The notes beneath the pieces are model-generated. The model worked only from the letters and a program-made list of their open reading frames with translations. It had not been told where the DNA came from and searched no databases. Position numbers and translations under genes: made by a program. A stretch of DNA of 37,007 nt from Spirochaetota bacterium (GTDB lineage Bacteria > Spirochaetota > Spirochaetia > Treponematales > UBA12059), in contig JAKPPT010000110.1 of assembly GCA_029547205.1 (NCBI GenBank), forward strand, positions 1 to 37,007, read 5' to 3'. This document shows positions 377 through 32,086 of the stretch, in pieces (position 1 is the first letter of the stretch; each line of letters begins with the position of its first letter).

Positions 377-2476
377 CTACTCAAGATACTGAATTGCTAT
401 AGGCTCAGGATCTCTGTAGTACCAATCATTTGTATTAAAGAACCCAAAGCTGTCGAGTGATAATAGCATCGGTGTTTCGGGGTCCCCTTCCTCGGTTTCA
501 ATTTGCATGAGATTCCATAGATTAAAGTCCTCATCAAGAACCAAAAAACCATTGCCGTTGTTCAGCGTACCAAGGACATACAAGTTGAGGTCGTTGATAC
601 TTGAAGGAGCTGTCTTGGAGCCTGCATGCGCTTGCAGCACAAGGTCCGTGTTGTAGAATGCAGTAAATGTAGGGAGTTCCCATTGCGCTATGAGCTTCTT
701 ATACTTTGCTGGTTGGTGGAGTATTGCTTCAAAGGTAAGTGCGCCTTTTGCGGTGAGGATGTTTTTTATTTCAGAGGATTCTGCACAGTCCAGTACCGTG
801 GAAAATGTCATACGTATGTCTCCATTGTTGTCTTCAAGTTCATACAGCTCAAGTGCGTTAACATCAGCCCCCTGTTCAATAAGGAATTTGACGACATCAA
901 TATGACCTTTTGCAACTGCGATATGGAGCAGGGTAGTAATACGCTCTTCGATTGTATCGAGAGACTGGAATCTGTTGTATATTTTTCCCGTCAACGGTAT
1001 TCCAAGTTCCTTGAATATAGAAAGCATCTCCAAATTTCCGTTTTGGACTGCATACACCACATCATCCCAGGTTAGGACAGGCTCAACATATTGGAGGTAT
1101 TGCTGGAATTTTCGGTTGAGAATAAACCGAAGCATTTCCGCGGTGCCATTCCTAATTATCCAAGAAACTATCGATGCCCGTTCGATATGGTATTCGATAG
1201 CTTCGTAGTCCGTAATAAAGTACGAATATCCGGGGAAAAAATCGTGTTCGAACAAAAAGAGCAATTTTTTTTCGTCCCTTATCTCTGCATACCGCAATAC
1301 AGGATAAAGTGCTTCCGTACAGTAGAAGTAGATATAGGTGTCTGGATCCCGCAATCCTGGGTATTGTTCCAGAAGTTTTTCCGCCTGCGAATAGTTTCCC
1401 TTTTCGATAGAGTCTAGTAGCGCGGTAATTGCGGGAATAAGCCCCATAGGTTCGAATGAGTCGAGAAGAGATTTGTATTCTTCAGCTTTAGAAGCATAAT
1501 AGTCGTCGTTGGGATAGTATTTGGGAAGATACCGTATCTCTGAAGGATACCGGGGGTCAGCCCCTCGGAATATGAGCATTTTAGCTAACTTCTGGTCGTA
1601 GAGCAGGGCGAATGACAGCAGTGTGTTTTCTCCACCGCTAACAGAGCTGGCTAACGTAAAATTGAGGTCGAGATCGTAATATTCCAGAATAAGCTGCAGG
1701 TCGTTTCTAAGCCTAGCTAAAACAGGTGCTTTGCTGTTAGGATCAATCTGGATGTCCTGCTCGGCTTTGTTAATAAGCCTGGTAATATAGTTCTGCCTTT
1801 CGGCATCCGACGTATTTCTGTCAAAAAAGTCAAAGAGGCTTAGATAGAACTCTTTGTCTTTCTGTATTGCATCGACTATGTTTGCAATCGTATCAATTTT
1901 GGATTTTGCGCTTGCCGCACGCCGCATGACAATTGCAACGAAACGAGGATCTGATTTTAATGCATCATCACACTTGCCCCATAGCCCCATAAGATAATGT
2001 TCGTTGCGTAGGTCTGGTGGAAAGCGTAAACTGAGACAAGCAAGCAGCAAACCCTGAACAGGTTCCGCTGTGTATTGTTTCTCGATGAATTTTTGCCAAT
2101 CCGTAGAGTAAGGTAGTGTCATGCCGGCATCGATGAGCAATTTGATGATGTCGTAATCTTCACGGTTAGCGGCAGCAGTGTACAAGTCTTGCAGTTGGCC
2201 AGCATTTTTAGGATCGGCTCCAGAGGCCAAGAGTTGCTTGATTATGGATATATCGCGCTTTGCCTCAAGTGCGACAATGAGAGGGGTTTGATTACTATCC
2301 GAAGCCATGTTGATATACTGTGCCGCGCGTTTAGAATTTGCCAGAAATGCCATGATCTGTTTCTCAGTTCCCGTACGAAGGAGTGTGTGGAGGGGATAAG
2401 GGTCTTTTGGATTACAGGAGGCAAAAATCAGAGTTGCGAGTATGGGCAACGCAATACGTAAAGCTAGTTTTTTCAT
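377..2476 (-). CDS. ankyrin-repeat lipoprotein
   Basis: A 699-residue exported lipoprotein. The start is the ATG at 2476 because AAAGGA lies 8 nt upstream; a start eight codons further out would include that ribosome site. The signal peptide has a basic start (MKKLALR), a hydrophobic core and a lipobox ending IFAS-C with the lipidated Cys at residue 21. Ankyrin-like units are recognisable at about residues 62-92 (TPL.VAL...GADP), 98-122, near 290-320, and most clearly at 514-545 (TTLLHIAVAKGH...LIEQGADVN). The last 130 residues are not ankyrin-like. Ankyrin repeats bind proteins, so a periplasmic or outer-membrane scaffold role is inferred; no enzymatic motif is visible. The gene stands alone, and a possible promoter (TTGCAT-17-TAGCAT) lies at 2542-2570. 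The lipoprotein and repeat calls are secure; the function is unknown. Confidence 0.85.
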   Translation of the reverse strand: MKKLALRIALPILATLIFASCNPKDPYPLHTLLRTGTEKQIMAFLANSKRAAQYINMASDSNQTPLIVALEAKRDISIIKQLLASGADPKNAGQLQDLYTAAANREDYDIIKLLIDAGMTLPYSTDWQKFIEKQYTAEPVQGLLLACLSLRFPPDLRNEHYLMGLWGKCDDALKSDPRFVAIVMRRAASAKSKIDTIANIVDAIQKDKEFYLSLFDFFDRNTSDAERQNYITRLINKAEQDIQIDPNSKAPVLARLRNDLQLILEYYDLDLNFTLASSVSGGENTLLSFALLYDQKLAKMLIFRGADPRYPSEIRYLPKYYPNDDYYASKAEEYKSLLDSFEPMGLIPAITALLDSIEKGNYSQAEKLLEQYPGLRDPDTYIYFYCTEALYPVLRYAEIRDEKKLLFLFEHDFFPGYSYFITDYEAIEYHIERASIVSWIIRNGTAEMLRFILNRKFQQYLQYVEPVLTWDDVVYAVQNGNLEMLSIFKELGIPLTGKIYNRFQSLDTIEERITTLLHIAVAKGHIDVVKFLIEQGADVNALELYELEDNNGDIRMTFSTVLDCAESSEIKNILTAKGALTFEAILHQPAKYKKLIAQWELPTFTAFYNTDLVLQAHAGSKTAPSSINDLNLYVLGTLNNGNGFLVLDEDFNLWNLMQIETEEGDPETPMLLSLDSFGFFNTNDWYYRDPEPIAIQYLE

Positions 2477-2541
2477 AGTATAGTCCTTTTTTAAAAACAC
2501 TTACAAAAAAATGATCTTATTAGAGAATTAACATAGCAAGA

Positions 2542-2570
2542 ATGCTATCACGGATACAGTAGTTATGCAA
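2542..2570 (-). promoter_or_regulatory. candidate promoter for the ankyrin lipoprotein gene
   Basis: On the minus strand TTGCAT (2565-2570), a 17-nt spacer and TAGCAT (2542-2547) form a sigma70-like pair about 65 nt upstream of the start codon. AT-rich surroundings make chance matches common. Confidence 0.4.
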
Positions 2571-2685
2571 GTTTTACTCCATACATAATTAGGATCTAAA
2601 ATGAATAACAAGCTTGCTTTTTTTGCTGAAAGGTAGTAAATTAATTTTGTTATAGAATTTTTTTTAAAATTAGTGTAAAAAGTAC

Positions 2686-2714
2686 TTGACAAAATTAATA
2701 ATATATGTTAATAT
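2686..2714 (+). promoter_or_regulatory. candidate promoter for the AAA+ ATPase gene
   Basis: TTGACA at 2686-2691, a 17-nt spacer and TAATAT at 2709-2714 (a TATAAT overlaps at 2712-2717) make a good sigma70-like promoter. Transcription would begin near 2722, leaving about 280 nt of untranslated leader before the ATPase start at 3003. Confidence 0.6.
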
Positions 2715-2821
2715 AATAATACTCTAGAAGAGTGGTTCGATTTACTTCTTGCTTGCGGAACCGATTACACAAGATAAACCTGTGATTGTAGTATTGCAGG
2801 ACTTTTGCTAAAGGGGTTCGC

Positions 2822-2863
2822 ATGTCTTTTACAACATTTACCTTTTTGTTTTGCTTCCATTGA
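2822..2863 (+). CDS. possible 13-residue phenylalanine-rich leader peptide
   Basis: An ATG at 2822 follows AAAGGGG (2810-2816) by 5 nt and opens a 13-codon frame, MSFTTFTFLFCFH, with five Phe codons, then TGA. It lies in the long leader of the AAA+ gene, upstream of alternative hairpins and a T-run. The pattern recalls amino-acid attenuation leaders such as pheL. Poly-T DNA makes Phe codons by chance, so this could be accidental. Confidence 0.3.
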   Translation: MSFTTFTFLFCFH

Positions 2864-2895
2864 GAAACTGCCAGTCTTTATACTTTTAGGAAAAA

Positions 2896-2963
2896 CTTAC
2901 GCATTAAACTTAATTAATTTTTTCTAACATCCGTGCGTAGGCAATTTCACAGCACTTTTTTTT
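2896..2963 (+). promoter_or_regulatory. possible attenuator: mutually exclusive hairpins and a T-run
   Basis: Bases 2896-2903 (cttacgca) can pair with 2934-2941 (tgcgtagg), eight pairs including one G-U. An overlapping alternative pairs 2933-2938 (gtgcgt) with 2949-2955 (acagcac, one bulged A) around a 10-nt loop, followed by eight T at 2956-2963, as in an intrinsic terminator. Both use 2934-2938, so they cannot form together. With the possible leader peptide just upstream this looks like terminator/antiterminator switching ahead of the AAA+ gene. It is read by eye only; no folding energy was calculated. Confidence 0.35.
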
Positions 2964-3002
2964 CTCTTTATGCAGTATGCAATACGACAATGGAGGAATG
3001 TT

Positions 3003-5240
3003 ATGGAAAATATTGTATCGTTTCCAGTCTCCGACTGTTTAGTTAATGAAGTATCATTAGAAATTTCTGGCAATTCCAAATTCTTAGAGAAAGCTAGTTT
3101 AACTTCTTTTGAAAAAAATCTTGGCAAGTATTTTATTGTCAATCTAATAGGCAAACATAGTTGGACAAAAGAATTTGTACATGTATTAAGCAAATATGTT
3201 TCGCTGGAATCAATAAATTTAGAATTGATAAAGCTATTCAACGCTAATCAAATCAATTCCTCAAGCAACCATTGTAATGCTTCGTCTTCAGAAAATTTAA
3301 ATATTGAGGAACTGTTTATTCAAAATATCCAGTATGCGGTTAGGCATGACCTCATTAATGCAGTAAACAATAGTATCAAAGAAAACCTCATGGCACCTTG
3401 TGATATAGCAAATTTAATAAAGAAAGAAGAGTTATATAAAATTATTTTTGAATTATATAAGCTCAATGAAAAAGAAATAACAGTTCTCGTTTTTCTTGAT
3501 TTAGCGGAAAAACTCTTAGGGGATGTTTTCTTGTTATGGACAAATGAAGACTTTCTAAAAGGCATAGGGTATAGTCTTGATATTCCCTTAGAAGAAATAA
3601 AAATAATTCTTGACATATCATCAAATCTCGTTTCAAGTGGGTTAGTAAAATTCATCGACTCGTATGAATTAAGTTATTTCGTCAATAAAGAATTAATAGA
3701 CTTCTTTAGGAAAGGAAAATCAATTCGGGATATTTTTAAAATAAAAAATATTAAAATTTCTTTACCAATTGAAGCATCACTCATAGAATCTAAACATAAA
3801 GAGCTTGCTCGCTTCCTAATTGAATATTCACAAACATGTCAAATTGTTTTATATGGAACAACTCGAAAACAACTGTTAAATTTTGCTTTTTCACTCTCTT
3901 CTTTGAAAAAGAAAAATCCATTTATTCTTAATCTTAAAGATCAGCTGTTGAGTAAATTAGAAAATAAAGTGATTTTCCGACTTCTCTCTTTAGCCGTTGA
4001 GCAATTTGATGAAGATTCGATATTCATTATTAGTAATATTTGTTTATTAAATTCAATTAATAAAAAAACATTCAATTCGTTTATTAATTTGTGTTATAAA
4101 CGCAATGCAAAAATTATTTGGCTGACAGTAAAGCCATTATTTTTAAAAAGATATGCCTCTCAGTTTAATGCAGCAATTGATGTTGGGAAAATAGATCCAA
4201 AAAACGCTCTAATTTTTTATAATCTCAATTTATCTCATTTAGATCTATGTGAAAAAATAAAAGAACGGGTTATTAAATATTTATTTAAAACAAATTTCCC
4301 TGTTTATAATTTCCATAATATTTTTCAATTCCTTTCCCAAATCAGCCAACAGCATATGCCAGACGAAATAGTAGAAACTATTGTCAATGCTTATTTTAAG
4401 GAAATGATGGAAATAGATGCCCTTTCATCAAATAAAAAAGAAAAGATAGAGCGTCTTCCATCGAATTTTCGAAATAAAAAACCCAAAGGAGAAAGCAATC
4501 ATGGAACAGAGCATTATTCCATTGAGGTGCTTCGAACATCCATTGATGCCTCAAAAATAATAAAGAGTGTTCAAAACGTTATCGCGCAATCTTCAAAAAA
4601 CCATAAACCTATTGACTTTAAGATTCTCTTTTATGGACCTCCTGGTTCAGGCAAAACAGCCCTGGCATATCATATTGCCCAGACAGTTGGGAAAAAAATT
4701 GTATCATATCATTATTCAGATATCGCAGACGCCTACATAGGACAAACAGAATCAAATATTGCTAAGATGTTTCGCAATCAAAAAGCTCGAGAAAATATTC
4801 TGCTCATAGATGAGATTGATAGTTTTTTATTCAAGCGCAAAAATGCGCTTCGCATGTGGGAAGTATCGCAGGTAAATGAATTTCTAACGCAGATGGAACA
4901 GTATCAGGGTATATTCATAGCGACAACAAATAATTTGAGTCTTCTTGATGAAGCAGTCATTCGAAGATTTCAGCAAAAGGTTGAGTTTTTCGAACTTTCC
5001 AATGAAGGAGTTATCACGTTGCTCCATACGTATTTCCCGAATATGGTATTTTCCGATGAGGCTGTAGAAAGACTTTTGAAAAGTGGTTCCTATTATCCTT
5101 CAGACTTTCAAGTTGTAGAAAGAAACATGCTAGTTCTAGATCCAGAAGAAGCAACTGCTGAAAATGTAATAAACATGCTCATCAACGAGGGCCGCTCGCA
5201 TAATAATGCTAAACAGCGACCAATTGGCTTTTCCGCGTAG
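3003..5240 (+). CDS. two-module AAA+ ATPase with degenerate first module
   Basis: A 745-residue protein. The ATG at 3003 is chosen because GGAGG lies 6 nt upstream. The C-terminal AAA+ module is complete: Walker A GPPGSGKT at 545-552, Walker B ILLIDEID near 599-606, sensor TTNN near 640, and a paired arginine finger (VIRRF) near 654-655. Earlier, residues 160-216 look helical or winged-helix-like (GYSLDIPLEEIKIILDISSNLVSSGLVKF region). Residues 280-380 resemble a dead AAA module: LYGTTRKQ at 283-290 where Walker A should be, DSIFIISN at 338-345 where Walker B should be, then a strand KIIWLT. Long bacterial Cdc48-like AAA proteins have this plan, which suggests protein remodelling rather than DNA work. 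The first 1.5 kb is very AT-rich and full of Ile, Lys and Asn, unlike its neighbours, so transfer is possible. The 282-residue gene downstream may be its partner. Confidence 0.85.
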   Translation: MENIVSFPVSDCLVNEVSLEISGNSKFLEKASLTSFEKNLGKYFIVNLIGKHSWTKEFVHVLSKYVSLESINLELIKLFNANQINSSSNHCNASSSENLNIEELFIQNIQYAVRHDLINAVNNSIKENLMAPCDIANLIKKEELYKIIFELYKLNEKEITVLVFLDLAEKLLGDVFLLWTNEDFLKGIGYSLDIPLEEIKIILDISSNLVSSGLVKFIDSYELSYFVNKELIDFFRKGKSIRDIFKIKNIKISLPIEASLIESKHKELARFLIEYSQTCQIVLYGTTRKQLLNFAFSLSSLKKKNPFILNLKDQLLSKLENKVIFRLLSLAVEQFDEDSIFIISNICLLNSINKKTFNSFINLCYKRNAKIIWLTVKPLFLKRYASQFNAAIDVGKIDPKNALIFYNLNLSHLDLCEKIKERVIKYLFKTNFPVYNFHNIFQFLSQISQQHMPDEIVETIVNAYFKEMMEIDALSSNKKEKIERLPSNFRNKKPKGESNHGTEHYSIEVLRTSIDASKIIKSVQNVIAQSSKNHKPIDFKILFYGPPGSGKTALAYHIAQTVGKKIVSYHYSDIADAYIGQTESNIAKMFRNQKARENILLIDEIDSFLFKRKNALRMWEVSQVNEFLTQMEQYQGIFIATTNNLSLLDEAVIRRFQQKVEFFELSNEGVITLLHTYFPNMVFSDEAVERLLKSGSYYPSDFQVVERNMLVLDPEEATAENVINMLINEGRSHNNAKQRPIGFSA

Positions 5241-21300: not shown

Positions 21301-21326
21301 GAAATATGAAAAGTCGAGGAGCATGT

Positions 21327-24170
21327 ATGAAACGCATAGCTACAGCCATACTGATTATTATTCTCAGTAGTACTCTATTCGCCCAAATATATGATAAACC
21401 CTATAAGCTATATCAAATTAAAACGCAATATTTTACTATAATATTCCCTGAACCTTCAAAAAAGTCAGCATACTATCTTGCAAGTTTTGCCGATGCTCTC
21501 TATGAAGAAGTAGCTCAAAAGCTTGGAACTAAACCAGAACTTACCATTCCTGTTCTCATAACACCTGACAGTGAAAGCATAAATGGCTTTTTTTCAAGCT
21601 ATCCAATTGTTAAAATAGTTTTATATGAAACAAGCATATCAAATAATTCACAGCTATCATTTAATAACCAGTTATACAAGCTATTCTATCATGAACTTAC
21701 ACATTTTGTTTCTCTTAGTGGTCTGAACTCTCTCACTCGTTCACTCTCAAAATTTTTTGGTGGTTGGATATTTGGAATCAATCAGCTCCAGATACCAGCT
21801 AATTTTTTAGAGGGAGTAACTGTATCATTTGAAAGCCACGATGGAATAGGACGGGCAGAAGATCCCCTGCCCGGAGGACAGATCCGTCAGGACATTTTAG
21901 AAAACAATTTCAAAACATTTGTGCAGAGCATGGGTGCATGGGACCTGTACCCAAATCGTGCCCTCTATTATTGGTACGGAGGATACTTTTCGCTCTATCT
22001 CCAGAAAACATATGGTCTTGAAGCCTATGCAAAACTGTGGGAGTATTTTTCGAATCCAATAAACGTTGTTCCGCTCGATGATATTGGTTTACTTAACGGC
22101 AAATTCAAATCAATTTATGGCATTACTCTGGAAGAAGCCTGGAACAATTTCAAAGATTTTATGAGTATTAAAACACCAGTCTACATGTATGTAAAAAAAA
22201 TCACAGAAGCAGGCTACTACTCAGCTCTTACTGCTCGTGATTCAACGATCCTCGTATATGATGCATATAAACAGGAAATTCAGGAACTATCAGCAAAAAC
22301 TCACAGACTGCAAAAAGTTATAGAGCATGAACATGATATAGAGCGAATTGCAATACATAAGAACGGAACTGTACTGCTATCAACCTATAAAGGATACAGC
22401 AACTTCCCTAAACAGGTATTGGAGCTATACAGTAAAGGTAAAATAACTCAGCTTCCATGGCAAAAAATGAGTGATGCAGTATGGGCAGGAGACAATATTC
22501 TTGCTATAGAAACTGAACATTATGCAAGAAATCTTGTTTTGCTCAAAGGATCAAAAAAATATACCTTACTTAAGGGTACCGAAAACATTATTTACTGGAA
22601 CCCCGTAAGCAATGATGACGGAACTGTATTGTATGTGCTCGTATCTGAAGCAGGCAAAAGCGCGATAGTCCGGTTACGCATGGATGGGACTACCGTACAG
22701 TCAATTCAAAAATTGATGCTGCCAGATGAACTCACCTGGATACGATATTTATCCTACAGCAACGGTTCACTGTATAGTGGCTGGGATAATAATACGTTAT
22801 ACAAACTGATCGCTGTACAGGATGCTGCTGTAACTCAAACTGCTGCTGTACGGTACGAAACGGTTCCCATGAGCCGTGGCGTTCATGAGCCAGTACAGAC
22901 AGCAGAGGGGCTCTACTACCTTGGATTTTTTTCTCAAGGTAGAGCAGTCTGCAAGTTTCCTGAATCATGGGACAATCTTGGATTCAATACTATAGAAGCT
23001 GTCTGGGAAGATGCTTCATATTTACTGCACGTACAATCAGCTTTTGATAACGAATCAACTTTTCCGGTAACAGCCTACAATAGTGTCCGGTGGCTACTAC
23101 CAGCAGGCATTGCACCATTTTTTAGTTATAATTTTTTAACCGCAGATTCTGAAATTGGAGCTACCATTTATTTTTCCGAACCTACTGATACTGTCTATTC
23201 AGCGCTTACAGCTTCAATAAATCCAAGCCTTCCCGATGTTGCACAGCTGTCCTTTCTGACCGCAATTGTACAGCCAGCGTTCACCATCAATACACAGTAC
23301 CAGGATAGTTTTTTTATCCAGGATAGTTTTTCTATATCGTATAATGATAATGGTACTGTTCAAGTATATCGCACAAGTAATGTATATCGCACAAGTAATG
23401 CAGCACTCACTGTTTCCACTACTCTTTTTGGCATTAACACGCTGGAAGGGATAGTGGCTGCTGGGCTTTCTGGATTCTCACAATTTGCTGCGACTGATAC
23501 CGATTACTACCGTTTCTGGGACTCCATTGCAGGAGGTGCCATCGCTCAGCTTGCTTTTACTACAAACAAACCCATTTTTAATGAACCTTCAAAATATGAA
23601 GGCTTTTCCTGTTCTCTGTTATATAGAATTGATAAGTTTATCATTCCCGATTACCCTGTCTGGTATTCAGGCATAGAAGGAAGGTTCACACTCGCATCAG
23701 GAAAGCCCTTTATAGAATTGATAACCGAAGGAGCTTTTAGCCCCAATGCAACACTCTACTATGGACCCATCGGCTTTGCATATATTGTTGGTGATGAGCC
23801 GTATCCTGGGAATTCCACGCTTACCGTGTTTACCGAATTTGCATCTATGGCGTATAGCACCTGGTATATTCAGAACATGCTACGTATCCGCATTGTAACC
23901 GCTGAGCTCCAACGCCAATTCCTTGGTCTCTACTATAACAGGCTTTTTATTGATTCAGGCATCAGGGCTGCGTTTGCAGAAACACCAATATGGATTGCAG
24001 GTGAGATTCCACTCTCGCATAATATTTCTGTATTTGTTTCTATGAATGTTACGGGAGGAACGGCTTTTTTTATGTCGGCAACGACTCATGTCTCAATAGG
24101 TTTAGAGTTTGCGATGTCACTCTTGACCTACAAACCAGGATTCAAACTCCTTACTAAGTTTTCAATGTAA
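21327..24170 (+). CDS. large exported HExxH (gluzincin-like) protein with probable C-terminal beta-barrel
   Basis: A 947-residue secreted protein. The ATG at 21327 is preferred because GAGGAG lies 5 nt upstream and the signal peptide (MKRIATAILIIILSSTLFA-Q, cut near residue 19) begins there. Residues 122-126 are HELTH and a downstream FLEGVTVSFES with Glu162 would supply the third zinc ligand, as in gluzincin peptidases of the MA clan. Residues of about 290-570 look like beta-propeller or TolB-like repeats (strands ending in Asp/Gly turns). The last 300 residues have the alternating aromatic pattern of an outer-membrane barrel, although no C-terminal Phe is seen (it ends TKFSM). Two adjacent 18-bp tandem duplications lie at 23301-23336 and 23364-23399. 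Cell-surface proteolysis is inferred. Confidence 0.75.
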   Translation: MKRIATAILIIILSSTLFAQIYDKPYKLYQIKTQYFTIIFPEPSKKSAYYLASFADALYEEVAQKLGTKPELTIPVLITPDSESINGFFSSYPIVKIVLYETSISNNSQLSFNNQLYKLFYHELTHFVSLSGLNSLTRSLSKFFGGWIFGINQLQIPANFLEGVTVSFESHDGIGRAEDPLPGGQIRQDILENNFKTFVQSMGAWDLYPNRALYYWYGGYFSLYLQKTYGLEAYAKLWEYFSNPINVVPLDDIGLLNGKFKSIYGITLEEAWNNFKDFMSIKTPVYMYVKKITEAGYYSALTARDSTILVYDAYKQEIQELSAKTHRLQKVIEHEHDIERIAIHKNGTVLLSTYKGYSNFPKQVLELYSKGKITQLPWQKMSDAVWAGDNILAIETEHYARNLVLLKGSKKYTLLKGTENIIYWNPVSNDDGTVLYVLVSEAGKSAIVRLRMDGTTVQSIQKLMLPDELTWIRYLSYSNGSLYSGWDNNTLYKLIAVQDAAVTQTAAVRYETVPMSRGVHEPVQTAEGLYYLGFFSQGRAVCKFPESWDNLGFNTIEAVWEDASYLLHVQSAFDNESTFPVTAYNSVRWLLPAGIAPFFSYNFLTADSEIGATIYFSEPTDTVYSALTASINPSLPDVAQLSFLTAIVQPAFTINTQYQDSFFIQDSFSISYNDNGTVQVYRTSNVYRTSNAALTVSTTLFGINTLEGIVAAGLSGFSQFAATDTDYYRFWDSIAGGAIAQLAFTTNKPIFNEPSKYEGFSCSLLYRIDKFIIPDYPVWYSGIEGRFTLASGKPFIELITEGAFSPNATLYYGPIGFAYIVGDEPYPGNSTLTVFTEFASMAYSTWYIQNMLRIRIVTAELQRQFLGLYYNRLFIDSGIRAAFAETPIWIAGEIPLSHNISVFVSMNVTGGTAFFMSATTHVSIGLEFAMSLLTYKPGFKLLTKFSM
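23301..23399 (+). repeat. two 18-bp tandem duplications inside the barrel region
   Basis: Bases 23364-23381 (gtatatcgcacaagtaat) are repeated exactly at 23382-23399, encoding two adjacent copies of VYRTSN. Just upstream 23301-23318 and 23319-23336 share 16 of 18 bases (caggatagttttt...), encoding QDSFFIQDSFSI. Both units are six codons, so copy changes keep the reading frame. Confidence 0.85.
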
Positions 24171-24186
24171 CTGCGCATAAACCACG

Positions 24187-26616
24187 ATGAAAACATCTGA
24201 ACGATTTTGCCATGAAGCTATTCTCGATCTTCGCGATGCCATAACAGATGCTTGCGGCAATGAAATTTATGCTGCAGGTATGCTCGATGAGGATGGGAAA
24301 GTCGCATCGGTGGCTGTACTTGCTCGCGGATCTATAGACAGCGTGCTTGTACACTGGAAAGGCACTCGAGGCACCGATGTGCTCATTCATAATCATCCTT
24401 CAGGAAACCTCAGTCCGAGCAAAGCTGATATGCGCATTGCGGAACAATTTGCCGAAGAAGGTTATGGATTTTATATCATCAATAATACAGCCACCGAAGT
24501 CTATGTTGTCATTGAACCGGTTGTTGCAAAAGAGGCAGAGCCCATTGACAGTGCAAGTATTGTAAAAGCGCTCGAACCTGGTGGAAAACTCGCAAAAAAA
24601 TTACCCAACTATGAACATAGACCAGACCAGCTTAAACTCATTCAGGCTGTCAGCGAAGCTTTTAACCACGAGCAAATTCTCATTGCAGAAGCTGGTACTG
24701 GCATCGGAAAATCGTTTGCATACCTGTTACCTGCTGTATACTGGGCTTTACAGAATAAACAACGTGTTGTTGTTTCAACAGCAACGATAAATCTCCAGCA
24801 GCAGCTCTATGAAAAAGATATGCCGCTCATTGCATCCCTCTTTAACGAAGATGTTAAATATGTTCTCATGAAAGGCCGCGGAAACTATATCTGTCGGAAA
24901 CGAGTTGCTGAATACCTTGAGGAAGAAGGACTCTTTGCACATGACAATACTTCACTCCAAGAAATACTCGCATGGATGGAAACAACTACCACCGGTGACA
25001 GAAATGACATGGTACCCTACCCTGAAGAATCACTATGGTCTAAAGTTTGTTCTGAATCAGAAAGCTGCAGCAATATTCGGTGTCCCTACCATGATCAGTG
25101 TTTTTTCATTAAAAACAGAAAAGAAGCAAGTGCTGCACACATTATTATAACAAACCATCACCTTTTGCTTATTGATTGCGCAAACCGGGGCTTAAAATCC
25201 GATTACAGTGCAGGTTCCGTACTGCCTCCATTTGAAAATATAATTCTCGATGAAGCACATAATCTGGAACAGAGTGCTTCTTCCGCTTTTTCAGAGGCAG
25301 TTAACCGATTCAGACTCAATAAATTTTTAACGCGCATACAGCGCGAACGCAACGAAAAAAAATTCGGTGTTCTCCCCGGTTTACAGAATGAAAAAATGAT
25401 TACGCCAGCTCTGCGGAAGAAAATTTCTGGCCTTATAAGCGATATCCAATTTGCATTTACAGAAACCGAAAACCATGCTTTTGCGCTTATTGGAAATGAA
25501 AACACACTACTCTTCGACGCATCGCTTAACTGCAAAGAATTCCTCGACTCTGCAATGCGCTGTGGAACTCTCATCACAGAGCTTATTACAGAACTGGCTA
25601 AAGCAAAGGAAAAGCTGGAAATAAAAAAACCGGACCATGAGCTCATTTCCGAAATTAACAACCTGCTTCTGTATCTTGAAGAGTATGCAAATTTATTTTA
25701 CAGCTATTCACAGTATTCTGAAGATGAAAAAAATATTTACTGGATTCAAAAACAGCGTACACTTAAAAATGAATATTATATTACTTTTATTAAAACCCCC
25801 CTTACCGTTGACTCTTGTATGCAGGCATGGGTTTTTGAACCATACAAAAGCATAGTGCTCATATCAGCAACACTTTCTACAGGAGGGTCATTCAATTATA
25901 TAAAATCCCGCCTGGGGTTATACCACAATGAACGCGTACAAGATGCCCAATTCTTCTCACCTTTTCCCTATGAAGACACTGCACTGCTCGCAATTCCTGA
26001 AGATGCACCTGATAATTCTCAAAAAAATTGGCAAAATTATATTAACACTACTGTGTACAAACTAATTATTGCCTCTCATGGAAGCGCACTGGTGCTCTTT
26101 ACATCGTATGATTCCTTGCAAGCTACATGGAAATACGCAGAGCCTCTCCTTAAGCAAGACGGGATACCAGCATACTGTCAGGGAAGTGATTCACGCTCTC
26201 GCTTGCTCGAAATTTTCAAGAGCAATATTACAAGTGTACTTTTTGCTACTGACTCATTCTGGGAAGGTGTGGATGCTCCAGGTGAAACGTTAAAACATCT
26301 CATTATTGTCAAACTACCTTTCAGACATCCCAATGATCCTATTTTTCTTGCACGTTCCAAACATCTGGAAAAGAAAAATAAAAATCCTTTTATGGAACTT
26401 TCACTTCCGGATGCAGTCATACGATTCAAACAGGGATTTGGGCGTTTAATACGGCACTCATCCGACACGGGTGTAGTTACTGTTCTCGATTCCAGAATAA
26501 TAAAAAAGTCTTATGGCGAGATTTTTCTAAAATCATTACCGCGCACGCAAAAAGCTATATCTACAACTGACAGACTAATACCAAAAATCAAGGATTTTTT
26601 TGGAGTCAATTCATGA
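24187..26616 (+). CDS. DinG-type iron-sulfur helicase with N-terminal RadC/JAB-like domain
   Basis: An 809-residue fusion. Residues 1-112 match the JAB/MPN fold of RadC: HNHPSG (68-73) then SPSKADM with Asp81 is the zinc-binding motif HxHPSG...PS..D. The remainder is a superfamily 2 XPD/DinG helicase: Walker A AEAGTGIGKS (167-176), a cluster of four Cys (236, 294, 299, 305) spaced 5 and 6 in the last three as in E. coli DinG, DEAH at 355-358, and motif VI QGFGRLIRH near 747. It should unwind branched or R-loop DNA in repair. The usual Firmicute partner is an exonuclease domain, so JAB at this position is unusual. It starts 16 nt after the preceding gene and ends in an ATGA overlap with the YaiI gene, without its own ribosome site. 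Confidence 0.9.
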   Translation: MKTSERFCHEAILDLRDAITDACGNEIYAAGMLDEDGKVASVAVLARGSIDSVLVHWKGTRGTDVLIHNHPSGNLSPSKADMRIAEQFAEEGYGFYIINNTATEVYVVIEPVVAKEAEPIDSASIVKALEPGGKLAKKLPNYEHRPDQLKLIQAVSEAFNHEQILIAEAGTGIGKSFAYLLPAVYWALQNKQRVVVSTATINLQQQLYEKDMPLIASLFNEDVKYVLMKGRGNYICRKRVAEYLEEEGLFAHDNTSLQEILAWMETTTTGDRNDMVPYPEESLWSKVCSESESCSNIRCPYHDQCFFIKNRKEASAAHIIITNHHLLLIDCANRGLKSDYSAGSVLPPFENIILDEAHNLEQSASSAFSEAVNRFRLNKFLTRIQRERNEKKFGVLPGLQNEKMITPALRKKISGLISDIQFAFTETENHAFALIGNENTLLFDASLNCKEFLDSAMRCGTLITELITELAKAKEKLEIKKPDHELISEINNLLLYLEEYANLFYSYSQYSEDEKNIYWIQKQRTLKNEYYITFIKTPLTVDSCMQAWVFEPYKSIVLISATLSTGGSFNYIKSRLGLYHNERVQDAQFFSPFPYEDTALLAIPEDAPDNSQKNWQNYINTTVYKLIIASHGSALVLFTSYDSLQATWKYAEPLLKQDGIPAYCQGSDSRSRLLEIFKSNITSVLFATDSFWEGVDAPGETLKHLIIVKLPFRHPNDPIFLARSKHLEKKNKNPFMELSLPDAVIRFKQGFGRLIRHSSDTGVVTVLDSRIIKKSYGEIFLKSLPRTQKAISTTDRLIPKIKDFFGVNS

Positions 26617-27119
26617 CTATTTGGGCTGATGCTGATTCACTCACACCTCAGGTGAGAACAATTATTCTGAGAAGATCCGGGAAACCGGTCCCCAACAGTA
26701 TTCCTGATAAACCCAATTCAATCATTAAAGTAATGTTTGTTTCCTGTAAACCACTACCCGAATATAAAACAATTGACTCTGATATATACAGTATTGTAGA
26801 ACAAAAAGATCAATCATCAGACGAATACATACTTTCGCATGCAAATATTGGTGATATTGTTATAACACGCGATATTCTTTTTGCAGAAAAAGCCCTGCAG
26901 CAAAGTCTATTTGTTCTCAACGACAGGGGAACAGTCTGGACAGAAGAATCCATTCGTGAGCGGATTGCCCTAATGAATTATAGTCAGGCATTACGTGAAG
27001 CTGGAATAGCTTCAAATAATAATAAAATAGGACTTTCAAAACAGGATATAAAGAATTTTGCTGATGCACTCGATAGAACAATTATTGCTGCATATAAACG
27101 TTCAATACTTGCACTATAG
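26613..27119 (+). CDS. YaiI/YqxD (UPF0178, DUF188) family protein
   Basis: A 168-residue protein of the widespread DUF188 family, recognised by the first motif MTIWADADSLTPQVR (Asp6 and Asp8), GDIVITRDILFAEKAL near residues 85-100, and VLNDRGTVWTEESI with the Arg-Gly turn. The acidic residues and fold suggest a PIN-like metal-dependent nuclease or RNA-binding role, though no activity is established. Its ATG overlaps the stop codon of the DinG-type helicase (ATGA), so translation is coupled and a shared role in nucleic-acid handling is possible. It converges with the transglycosylase gene 15 nt downstream, with no terminator seen. Confidence 0.9.
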   Translation: MTIWADADSLTPQVRTIILRRSGKPVPNSIPDKPNSIIKVMFVSCKPLPEYKTIDSDIYSIVEQKDQSSDEYILSHANIGDIVITRDILFAEKALQQSLFVLNDRGTVWTEESIRERIALMNYSQALREAGIASNNNKIGLSKQDIKNFADALDRTIIAAYKRSILAL

Positions 27120-29026: not shown

Positions 29027-32000
29027 TTATTCAATTTCTATCCTGTTCCTTCCTTTGTTTTTGGCCCGATACAACGCTGTATCAGCTTTTTGAACCATAT
29101 CCCAGCATTCACTTTCATTAGATGGAATTGTTGTATGTATTCCAATGCTTATGGTAATAAATGCAGCTAGCGGCGATGTATCACAGCGTATCTGTGCATC
29201 AATAACAGCATGGAGTAGTTTATCGGCGACCTGCATTGCTCCGGAACTATCAGTATTAGGTAATATAATTAAAAATTCCTCACCACCATAGCGTGCTGCA
29301 ATATCACTTGAACGAACTAATGATTGATCTAATATTTCCGCAATCTTTTTTAACACAGCATCACCAGCAATATGTCCGTATTTATCATTGTAATTCTTGA
29401 AAAAATCGATATCCACCATTAAAAGTGACAGAGGTTTACGCTCTCGCGATGCCTCAGCTGCAAGCAAAGGTAATGTATGATCTATATATCTCCGATTCGA
29501 TATTCCTGTTAAACTATCGAGTATAGCCAGTTCTTGAAGTTTTGTATTGGCTTTTTCAAGGCTTACCTTTAAAAGTGTAAGTTCCTGCACCTGTTTCTGT
29601 AATTGTTTTTTTGTAATGAACAGAGCAATTGCGTAACCAAAGCCAATTAAAAACAGTACATACAGTATTATCCCTGCTGTACTGAGCAAAAAAGGTTTTT
29701 GTATTCTAATCGGAAGCGCATATGCCTCATTATTCCATAATCCGTTATTATCGCTCACACGCAATCTGAATACATAAGAACCTCCTGGCAGGTTTGTATA
29801 AACAGCCGAAGGTTCTGCAGATGGAATCGACCATCGCTTATCAAAACCTTCAAGCATCCAGGAATAGAGATTTCTTCGCGGTTCACGAAAATCCGATGAA
29901 GCAAAGGTAAAATGCACATTATTCTGGCTTGCACTCAACCGCAATGATTTTACATAACCAGCAGATTGCATTAATAATTCAGAAACTGACTGACCATTTA
30001 TTTCAATGTCGGATATGAGAGCACGAGGAAGCTTAATATCTGGGAAACTTTGCAAAGGATTAATTACATAGAGAACATTTTGACCGCCAAGGTATATAAG
30101 ACCATTCTTTGTTATACACGCTCCAGTAGAGAGTTCTTTATCACGCAGTGAATGGTACATGGAATATCCTCTAAAGCTGTAACCATCTTCATCAATAATA
30201 GCTAATCCGCTCGCAGTTGTTACCCAGATAGAACCATCTCGTGCTTCCAGAATTGCGCGAATTGCATTATGTGGCAGTCCATCGAGTTTAGTAAAATGAA
30301 TAAAGCTATCTCGTAAGGGATCATACCGCATGAGTCCGCCGCCAATACTCCCAATCCATAATCGATTTTTCGAATCTTTGAACAAAACCCGGATATTGGT
30401 TGATGAGACACCGTTTCTGTTCTCTCGATCATAATAGTATCGTATGAACTTTCCTTGGGTATAATGATTGAGGCCATTATTCATCCCTACCCATAGTTCA
30501 CCATTAGAATCATACGCCATACAATAAACGAGACCATCAGAAGGATACGTATCATCAGTGGGGTTTGGTGGGAAATGAGTGAATACCCCCGTTTTAGGAT
30601 TAAACTTATCGAGTCCTTTTTGGTAGAGCCCAATCCAGTATTCTCCTTCTGGTGTTTCAAGAATAGAAAAGACTACCTTGTCACCAATTGAATCTGGATC
30701 ATCAGGATTATATGTAAATATGGTAAAATCATCTGTTTCTGGAACATAATACGCTAAGCCACTGTTAGTACAGAGCCATAAGCGTCCTCTGCTGTCAACA
30801 TAGAGCTGATTAATGATTGCATCTGGCAGACTGCGCTTGTTCTTTTTATCGGGCATGTACTGCTTGAAAGTTCCTGTTTGTTTATCGAACTTATTGAGAC
30901 CGCCATTATATACTGCAACCCATATTGTTTCATTTGTATCTTCTACTATTGCTGTTATTCGACCAATAGGCAACGAACCAGCTTTCCCCGATTCAGCCTG
31001 GTATAGCGCATACTGAATATCACGCTTTTGAGTATAAGCAACGCCGCCACCATTAGTGCCGATCCAGAAAAGTCCATTGGAATCTAACAACGCTGAATAC
31101 ACAACATTGTTAGGTAATGCTCCCTTTCCATCAGAAACAACATAGTTAGTTATCTGCTTTGTCGTTACATCATAGACAAATAATCCAGCGCCCCAGGAAC
31201 CAGCGAGAACTTTACCATCAAGCTGGGTGTTAACAAAATAAATTCTATCATCCTGCAGTTTTACTGTTTCAAACTGATAGGTTGATCTATCAATTAACCG
31301 AGAAATTCCTCCAAACCAGGTGCCAAACCAGAGTGTGCCTTCACTGTCTTCGCTAATTGACATAACATAAGGAGACGGCAGAGAAAATTTTTCGTCTGAA
31401 ACGACTTTCACAAACACATTGCTAGTATAATCATACTTCCATAGGCCCTCACCATGTGTAGCTATCCAGAGTTCGCCCTGTCTGTCACAGTGAATATCCC
31501 GGATCATGCAAAGGGGTAATCCACTAGCATTAGCAGGTTTTGAATAGTGTACAAATGTTCCTGTCTTTTCATCTAATCGATCGAGACCAGCCTCAGTACC
31601 TACCCACAGATTTCCCTGGATATCTCTGCAAATAGACACAACAATATTGCCACTTAAAGAATCAGCCCTGTCTGCACCATGTATAAAGTTCGTTATAGAA
31701 TAAGTCTTTATATCTAAGCGATTTAGTCCGCCATATGTCCCTATCCATAACACATCGCCATCCAGATATAGTGTCTGGACCTGGCTATGAGAGAGTACAT
31801 TGTCTAAGAACGGTTCATTTTCAAAGACCTTAAACGTATAACCATCATAGCGTGCTAATCCATTTTGTGTACCAAACCATAAAAAGCCCTGATTATCCTG
31901 TACAATAGCAGATACCGAAGCATTAGGAAGACCTTCTTTAGTAGTTAATGTTGTAAAAAACCAGTTTTCTTCTGCAAATACAGAAACAGGTAAAATGCTC

Positions 32001-32035
32001 ACAAGCACAACAATAAAAAAAAATCTATATCTCAT
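29027..32035 (-). CDS. periplasmic-sensor diguanylate cyclase (Reg_prop / Y_Y_Y / GGDEF)
   Basis: A 1002-residue membrane receptor. A signal peptide (MRYRFFFIVVLVSILPVSVFA) leads into about fourteen Reg_prop propeller units (repeated DxxGxLWxGT..GL.R motifs), a Y_Y_Y domain (Ser-Trp-Met-Leu-Glu-Gly-Phe motif), one membrane helix (about 785-805), a short coiled coil and a C-terminal GGDEF domain. The active site is GGEEF at 917-921 with an RxxD inhibitory site five residues before it (RSSD, 908-911). It should make cyclic di-GMP from GTP and be feedback-controlled. The periplasmic ligand, perhaps a polysaccharide, is unknown. The ATG at 32035 is chosen because of the clean signal peptide and a -10 just upstream; TTG 32065 and ATG 32059 are alternatives. 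No phosphodiesterase or PilZ partner is nearby. Confidence 0.93.
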   Translation of the reverse strand: MRYRFFFIVVLVSILPVSVFAEENWFFTTLTTKEGLPNASVSAIVQDNQGFLWFGTQNGLARYDGYTFKVFENEPFLDNVLSHSQVQTLYLDGDVLWIGTYGGLNRLDIKTYSITNFIHGADRADSLSGNIVVSICRDIQGNLWVGTEAGLDRLDEKTGTFVHYSKPANASGLPLCMIRDIHCDRQGELWIATHGEGLWKYDYTSNVFVKVVSDEKFSLPSPYVMSISEDSEGTLWFGTWFGGISRLIDRSTYQFETVKLQDDRIYFVNTQLDGKVLAGSWGAGLFVYDVTTKQITNYVVSDGKGALPNNVVYSALLDSNGLFWIGTNGGGVAYTQKRDIQYALYQAESGKAGSLPIGRITAIVEDTNETIWVAVYNGGLNKFDKQTGTFKQYMPDKKNKRSLPDAIINQLYVDSRGRLWLCTNSGLAYYVPETDDFTIFTYNPDDPDSIGDKVVFSILETPEGEYWIGLYQKGLDKFNPKTGVFTHFPPNPTDDTYPSDGLVYCMAYDSNGELWVGMNNGLNHYTQGKFIRYYYDRENRNGVSSTNIRVLFKDSKNRLWIGSIGGGLMRYDPLRDSFIHFTKLDGLPHNAIRAILEARDGSIWVTTASGLAIIDEDGYSFRGYSMYHSLRDKELSTGACITKNGLIYLGGQNVLYVINPLQSFPDIKLPRALISDIEINGQSVSELLMQSAGYVKSLRLSASQNNVHFTFASSDFREPRRNLYSWMLEGFDKRWSIPSAEPSAVYTNLPGGSYVFRLRVSDNNGLWNNEAYALPIRIQKPFLLSTAGIILYVLFLIGFGYAIALFITKKQLQKQVQELTLLKVSLEKANTKLQELAILDSLTGISNRRYIDHTLPLLAAEASRERKPLSLLMVDIDFFKNYNDKYGHIAGDAVLKKIAEILDQSLVRSSDIAARYGGEEFLIILPNTDSSGAMQVADKLLHAVIDAQIRCDTSPLAAFITISIGIHTTIPSNESECWDMVQKADTALYRAKNKGRNRIEIE

Positions 32036-32041
32036 ACTAAA

Positions 32042-32086
32042 AGCATAAGCGATTGCCATTGACAATTCAAGTTTTCATAGTACACT
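32042..32086. promoter_or_regulatory. back-to-back promoters (diguanylate cyclase / cytidylate-kinase-like gene)
   Basis: Plus strand: TTGACA at 32059-32064 and TACACT at 32081-32086 (16-nt spacer) for the gene at 32115. Minus strand: TTGAAT at 32065-32070 and TATGCT at 32042-32047 (17-nt spacer) for the cyclase, whose -10 ends 6 nt before ATG 32035. The two -35 boxes touch, so two polymerases could not bind at once. Confidence 0.5.

Follow-up and report, generated by a model that had tools for sequence, protein, structure and literature searches.

A JAB domain fused to a YoaA-like iron-sulfur helicase in spirochaetes and other bacteria: predicted active site and repeated loss of the domain

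A gene in a 2.65 Mb spirochaete genome encodes, in a single frame, a JAB domain with a complete JAMM active-site set followed by a complete iron-sulfur helicase. Its product almost certainly belongs to the “RadC-like DinG” proteins, as a chromosomal housekeeping member with a genuine JAB identity and an intact active site. This architecture was named by Cheng 2025 (PMC11981726, section 3.8), where the zinc site was modelled and the type is from Desulfuromonas soudanensis. Three observations are new here. Judging from the alignments, every complete JAB domain has the same catalytic residues, save that of one decaying copy. Furthermore, the natural reading of a tree of the helicase part is that spirochaetes lost the JAB domain but not the helicase ∼14 times, at least 10 of them on well-supported branches. 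The third is the acidity of the fusion domain in every copy counted (median net charge −8).

The fusion gene and its two domains

The window, i.e. the whole stretch of DNA that was analysed, is 37,007 nucleotides long. The fusion gene occupies window positions 24187–26616 of the forward strand and runs unbroken from an ATG at 24187 to a TGA ending at 26616, with the following features:

24187..26616, forward strand: JAB-DinG fusion gene, single frame, 809 aa, stop included (Pfam and NCBIfam matches)
24187..24516, forward strand: N-terminal JAB/JAMM domain of the fusion-type clade, residues 1–110 (PF04002; fusion-domain model, 161.8 bits; AlphaFold2 mean pLDDT 94.9; fold like Rpn11, PfJAMM1 and RadC)
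24262..24264, forward strand: E26 codon, predicted catalytic glutamate (invariant in 81 aligned fusions and in 49/49 complete, non-decayed spirochaete copies)
24388..24396, forward strand: H68-N69-H70 codons, predicted zinc ligands (conserved across aligned fusions and spirochaete copies)
24418..24429, forward strand: S78 to D81 codons, JAMM serine and predicted third zinc ligand (S78 and D81 invariant)
24517..24579, forward strand: linker, residues 111–131 (boundary by alignment and model; JAB-less relatives start nearby)
24580..26613, forward strand: XPD/DinG-type (YoaA-like) superfamily 2 helicase, residues 132–809 (NF053712 YoaA, 543.6 bits; phmmer against 6fwr)
24694..24714, forward strand: Walker A, GTGIGKS, residues 170–176 (conserved in the family)
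24892..24894, forward strand: C236 codon, first FeS cysteine (invariant)
25066..25101, forward strand: C294, C299 and C305 codons, the other FeS cysteines (C299 and C305 invariant; C294 in at least 90%)
25249..25260, forward strand: Walker B, DEAH, residues 355–358 (conserved in the family)
26431..26454, forward strand: motif VI, QGFGRLIR, residues 749–756 (conserved in the family)

The Pfam RadC/JAB family PF04002 matched residues 17–90 at 35 bits (cut-off 22.1), with 40.5 bits for the domain alone. The zinc motif, HNHPSGNLSPSKAD, reads H68-x-H70-x7-S78-x2-D81 and fits the JAMM pattern HxHx7Sx2D, and the upstream glutamate completes the set E26/H68/H70/S78/D81. All five residues were invariant among the 81 aligned fusions and retained in 49 of the 51 spirochaete copies, a set chosen by whole-protein match. 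The remaining two are a copy cut by a contig end and a decaying one (L055; G233:C3, positions 969–3479), in which the JAB domain is still in frame but E26 has become V, the first H has become S and the HNHPSG motif is ruined, with the helicase intact. To judge from its sequence, L055 is a fusion caught in mid-decay of its JAB domain. The initial annotation had regarded loss of the zinc ligands as evidence against its reading; the ligands are kept in complete copies, and their loss was seen in this decaying copy. We predict that the JAB domain is probably an active hydrolase.

The motor motifs of the helicase (MD1/MD2) are complete (Walker A, DEAH and motif VI), as are all four FeS cysteines. 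Helicase_C_2 (Pfam) scored 155.7 bits, and NCBIfam YoaA/DinG models spanned residues 128–804, all of them below their equivalog cut-offs. The best of these, the YoaA model NF053712 (residues 128–790), reached 543.6 bits against a cut-off of 680. By sequence, the closest solved structure to the helicase is E. coli DinG 6fwr (phmmer, E=5.7e-47). While YoaA, the E. coli repair helicase and partner of HolC, provides the best model match, the fusion differs from it in this sub-threshold score, in carrying a JAB domain and in residing in a genome without HolC; no PF04364 (HolC) match was found in the genome carrying the window, and the positive control, E. coli, gave one. A DEAD_2 search of the same genome found no second DinG/Rad3-type helicase. 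Thus the description given by the initial annotation was borne out by the single frame, the domain matches and the motifs: a JAB domain whose zinc motif is intact is joined to a complete iron-sulfur helicase.

The protein shares with published RadC-like DinG a JAB domain at its N-terminus (one E, two H, one D), a YoaA-like iron-sulfur helicase, a C-terminal helix past the motor domain and a genome without HolC (PMC11981726). We found no functional difference between them and regard the fusion here as a spirochaete member. The subgroup has had no experimental study so far according to the review's account of it, which gives the extra domain as being without known function (PMC11981726). The review sampled a single strain from each order, and its main text mentions neither the repeated loss of the domain, nor how far it stands from RadC proper, nor that it is acidic (PMC11981726). 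Fusions of RadC to DinG/RAD3-like helicases had also been noted by Aravind's group, who argued for a nuclease, citing Iyer 2011 (PMC5512222).

Relation of the JAB domain to RadC

Sequence comparison places the fusion domain among JAB domains but outside RadC proper, as a separate JAB clade. It resembles RadC (PF04002; PDB 2qlc) in its JAB fold and its HNHPSG...S..D motif, and RadC is its best Pfam match. Unlike RadC, it is acidic, has a shorter stretch ahead of HNHP, and lacks the HhH N-terminus, with the JAB fold beginning at about residue 4 and no domain before it. The RadC PRE motif was present in none of 127 fusions versus 32 of 40 stand-alone proteins, and the DH motif in 0/127 versus 37/40; in the alignment, the fusions lack PRE together with its surrounding segment and carry I-x-x-N in place of the RadC L-D-H. 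A profile built from 81 fusion domains gave the window's protein and three other fusions 158–170 bits, against at most 42 for true RadC proteins in the searched genomes. Conversely, the fusion did not reach the NCBIfam RadC cut-offs (29.3 vs 180 bits and 27.7 vs 133.85 bits). Of the “RadC/JAB-like” label in the initial annotation, the JAB part with its complete JAMM set stands; the RadC part does not.

It had also been supposed that separate radC genes would be missing from genomes with the fusion. A canonical 281-aa RadC (137 bits) lies on another contig (C82) of the genome carrying the window, and a RadC-family match (PF04002) was found in 144 of the 149 genomes of the order, mostly including a full-scoring stand-alone RadC. 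Some distant members of the phylum have the fusion-type JAB only. Neither the fusion JAB nor stand-alone RadC replaces the other. A reduced genome of 1.1 Mb in the same order (G032) lacks the fusion, its helicase and any RadC match.

The initial annotation had further held that the fusion is unusual enough to reveal the function of RadC. It belongs instead to a DinG subgroup that is already published, with an extra domain described there as having no known function (PMC11981726), and it bears on RadC function less strongly than had been claimed. What RadC and its relatives do is a long-standing question, and the helicase-fused JAB deserves study as a clade of its own rather than as RadC.

Distribution and repeated loss of the domain

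When searched with the whole protein, 55 of the 59 near genomes and 351 of the 393 genomes in the phylum yielded relatives, and many of these are full fusions at 35–48% identity. The single-frame form is present in at least 40 spirochaete genomes. Other JAB-DinG fusions, for which the initial annotation had suggested a search, were also recovered outside the spirochaetes. Across 84,980 species genomes, scanning turned up 80 such loci, which belong to Spirochaetes, KSB1, Desulfuromonadales, Acidobacteria, Gemmatimonadota, Fusobacteria, Halanaerobiales, Myxococcota, an Acidimicrobiia MAG and others. The JAMM motif was in frame with helicase sequence at all scan loci; one of the two scan patterns included HNHP, so conservation of HNHP in this set is partly selected. 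Since the single-frame form recurs in at least 40 spirochaete genomes and in 80 loci of many phyla, the fusion is neither an assembly join nor a product of chance. It is a family rather than a one-off, with an architecture that is already published. A split or frameshift between the domains was ruled out, every locus being a single frame. A phage origin was also ruled out by a viral scan, which yielded no fusion, only DinG-type helicases without JAB or short lone JAB proteins.

The tree of the helicase part (104 rows, JAB columns left out) required at least 14 changes in JAB presence, 10 of them forced by well-supported branches; the search was quick and rows were picked to include JAB-less cases, and the figure of ∼14 is a guide, not a rate. 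We read these changes as losses because the fusion domain forms one clade with a constant junction. The JAB-less proteins begin at the linker (query residue 97–128). A six-frame look around 27 JAB-less genes found no JAB remnant except a 14-bit stub (L058) that may stem from misassembly. When 15 JAB-less genomes were searched whole with the fusion-domain profile, none had a fusion-type JAB at another locus: 14 had RadC-like JAB matches only (at most 42 bits) and one had none. The same profile search also recovered the decaying copy in G233. Separation of the two domains in close relatives had been put forward as evidence against a functional fusion; no relative was found with two separate genes, but the JAB domain has repeatedly been lost. 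Such loss with retention of the helicase implies that the domain is separable. Close-relative pairs with and without JAB inside one spirochaete family make its role testable by comparison, and, as the active site is invariant, it can be probed cleanly with single-residue mutants.

Possible roles of the JAB domain and its genomic neighbourhood

The reading that we tentatively prefer, at somewhat under an even chance, is that the JAB domain works as a metallopeptidase coupled to the helicase, with protein at blocked DNA as its substrate. The helicase motor would load onto single-stranded DNA at stalled forks or blocked ends, unwind the duplex, and strip or unfold bound material. The JAB domain would then act as a zinc hydrolase on whatever the motor delivers, its target most likely being peptide or isopeptide bonds of DNA-stuck protein rather than DNA. 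This activity would be accessory to the helicase, because the domain has gone from many lineages that retain the helicase. The role proposed for the helicase is modelled on that of YoaA, whose unwinding takes place at forks and blocked 3' ends (PMC11981726, section 3.2), though HolC is absent from this genome.

Three features favour protein over DNA: retention of the full peptidase site, fold neighbours that are mostly peptidases, and the acidity of the domain. The MPN/JAB fold was confirmed (best Z 11.6, rmsd 2.5 over 105 residues), with VIA-align Z scores of 11.6 for CsRpn11, 11.4 for bacterial BubCD, 10.9 for PfJAMM1 and 8.9 for RadC 2qlc; Foldseek, ordered by E-value, placed RadC on top. 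The gap of ∼2.7 in Z between the JAMM peptidases and RadC spans predicted and solved structures and is only suggestive. JAMM isopeptidases and their kin (CsRpn11, PfJAMM1, bacterial BubCD and Cap3; Z 9.2–11.6) share the fold and the complete E/HxH/S/D site with the fusion domain, yet identity is 9–18% and the fusion gene has no adjoining ubiquitin-like partner.

A further reason for favouring protein comes from animals. FANCJ is an iron-sulfur helicase of the XPD-like group. Such a helicase and a metalloprotease cooperate on DNA-protein crosslinks in animals (PMC10175854): FANCJ unfolds the crosslinks, a step likely to precede degradation by the metalloprotease SPRTN (Yaneva 2023, cited in PMC10175854). 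By this analogy, helicase-metalloprotease pairing would have a precedent, in the form of two separate proteins. That the fusion carries out DNA-protein-crosslink repair in one bacterial chain, the helicase unfolding a protein stuck on DNA that the fused JAB metalloprotease then cuts, is a narrower proposal and an improbable one. If true, a single chain would do the job of animal FANCJ and SPRTN, and bacterial JAB domains would gain a new, non-ubiquitin class of substrate.

The main and nearest rival, doubtful but to be taken seriously, has the JAB domain acting as a nuclease, or as some other hydrolase of nucleic acids, that cuts the strand unwound by the helicase, much as the exonuclease of ExoDinG or the endonuclease of EndoDinG would. 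These recognised sister architectures (PMC11981726) likewise place an enzyme domain N-terminal to a DinG helicase, though theirs is an exonuclease or endonuclease and not a JAB, and the JAB domain sits where other DinG proteins carry nuclease domains (Iyer 2011, restated in PMC5512222). RadC is moreover the nearest Pfam family, and RadC-type JABs were inferred by Aravind's group to lack a groove for the ubiquitin tail, which counts against the peptidase reading (PMC5512222). On the other hand, the DALI search of the domain described by Cheng returned metalloproteases and no nucleases (PMC11981726), and we found no biochemically proven JAB nuclease in the open-licence literature. The fusion domains were also acidic in 127 of 127 cases, none being positive (median net charge −8, pI 4.7), compared with a median net charge of −1 and pI 6.6 for 31 RadC domains (Mann-Whitney p ∼1e-14, with kinship ignored and related sequences being non-independent samples). 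This acidity counts weakly against a nuclease, as a local basic patch is still compatible with net acidity.

A structural or regulatory role of the zinc site is unlikely; in that case the domain would dock on the helicase and gate loading or partner contact without hydrolysis. The whole-protein AlphaFold2 model (mean pLDDT 91.9, pTM 0.86) suggests a defined domain placement, and with HolC absent from the genome the domain could serve recruitment. However, E26 and S78 are strictly conserved, and in JAMM enzymes these positions are catalytic rather than zinc ligands; the ∼14 losses without helicase loss also count against a structural need. Lastly, the model implied by the initial annotation, that RadC moved into the helicase gene and replaced stand-alone radC, is highly improbable: the domain does match RadC best in Pfam and NCBIfam, and the fusion-type JAB occurs alone in some distant phylum members, but co-occurrence with canonical RadC in this genome and most of the order contradicts it, as do the separate clade lacking RadC motifs and the RadC still found in lineages minus the fusion domain.

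An operon partner was ruled out, no neighbour gene recurring across phyla, and neither a ubiquitin-like protein nor any other consistent partner adjoined the fusion; synteny was short and confined to Treponema, Geobacter relatives and Gemmatimonadota. In the window, the upstream gene (21306–24170, forward strand) stops 16 bases ahead of the fusion ATG and encodes a 954-aa protein with a signal-like N-terminus and a HELTH (HExxH) metallopeptidase-like motif; it had no Pfam match at E 0.001. Downstream, a DUF188 gene (YaiI/YqxD family; 26613–27119, forward strand) overlaps the fusion stop by the four bases ATGA, which suggests translational coupling with the fusion gene; DUF188 is not conserved as a neighbour at other fusion loci. 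Further along, on the reverse strand (29027–32065), a 1012-aa protein has, by eye from its translation, what look like repeats of two-component-regulator propeller blades and, after them, a GGDEF-type (GGEEF) domain.
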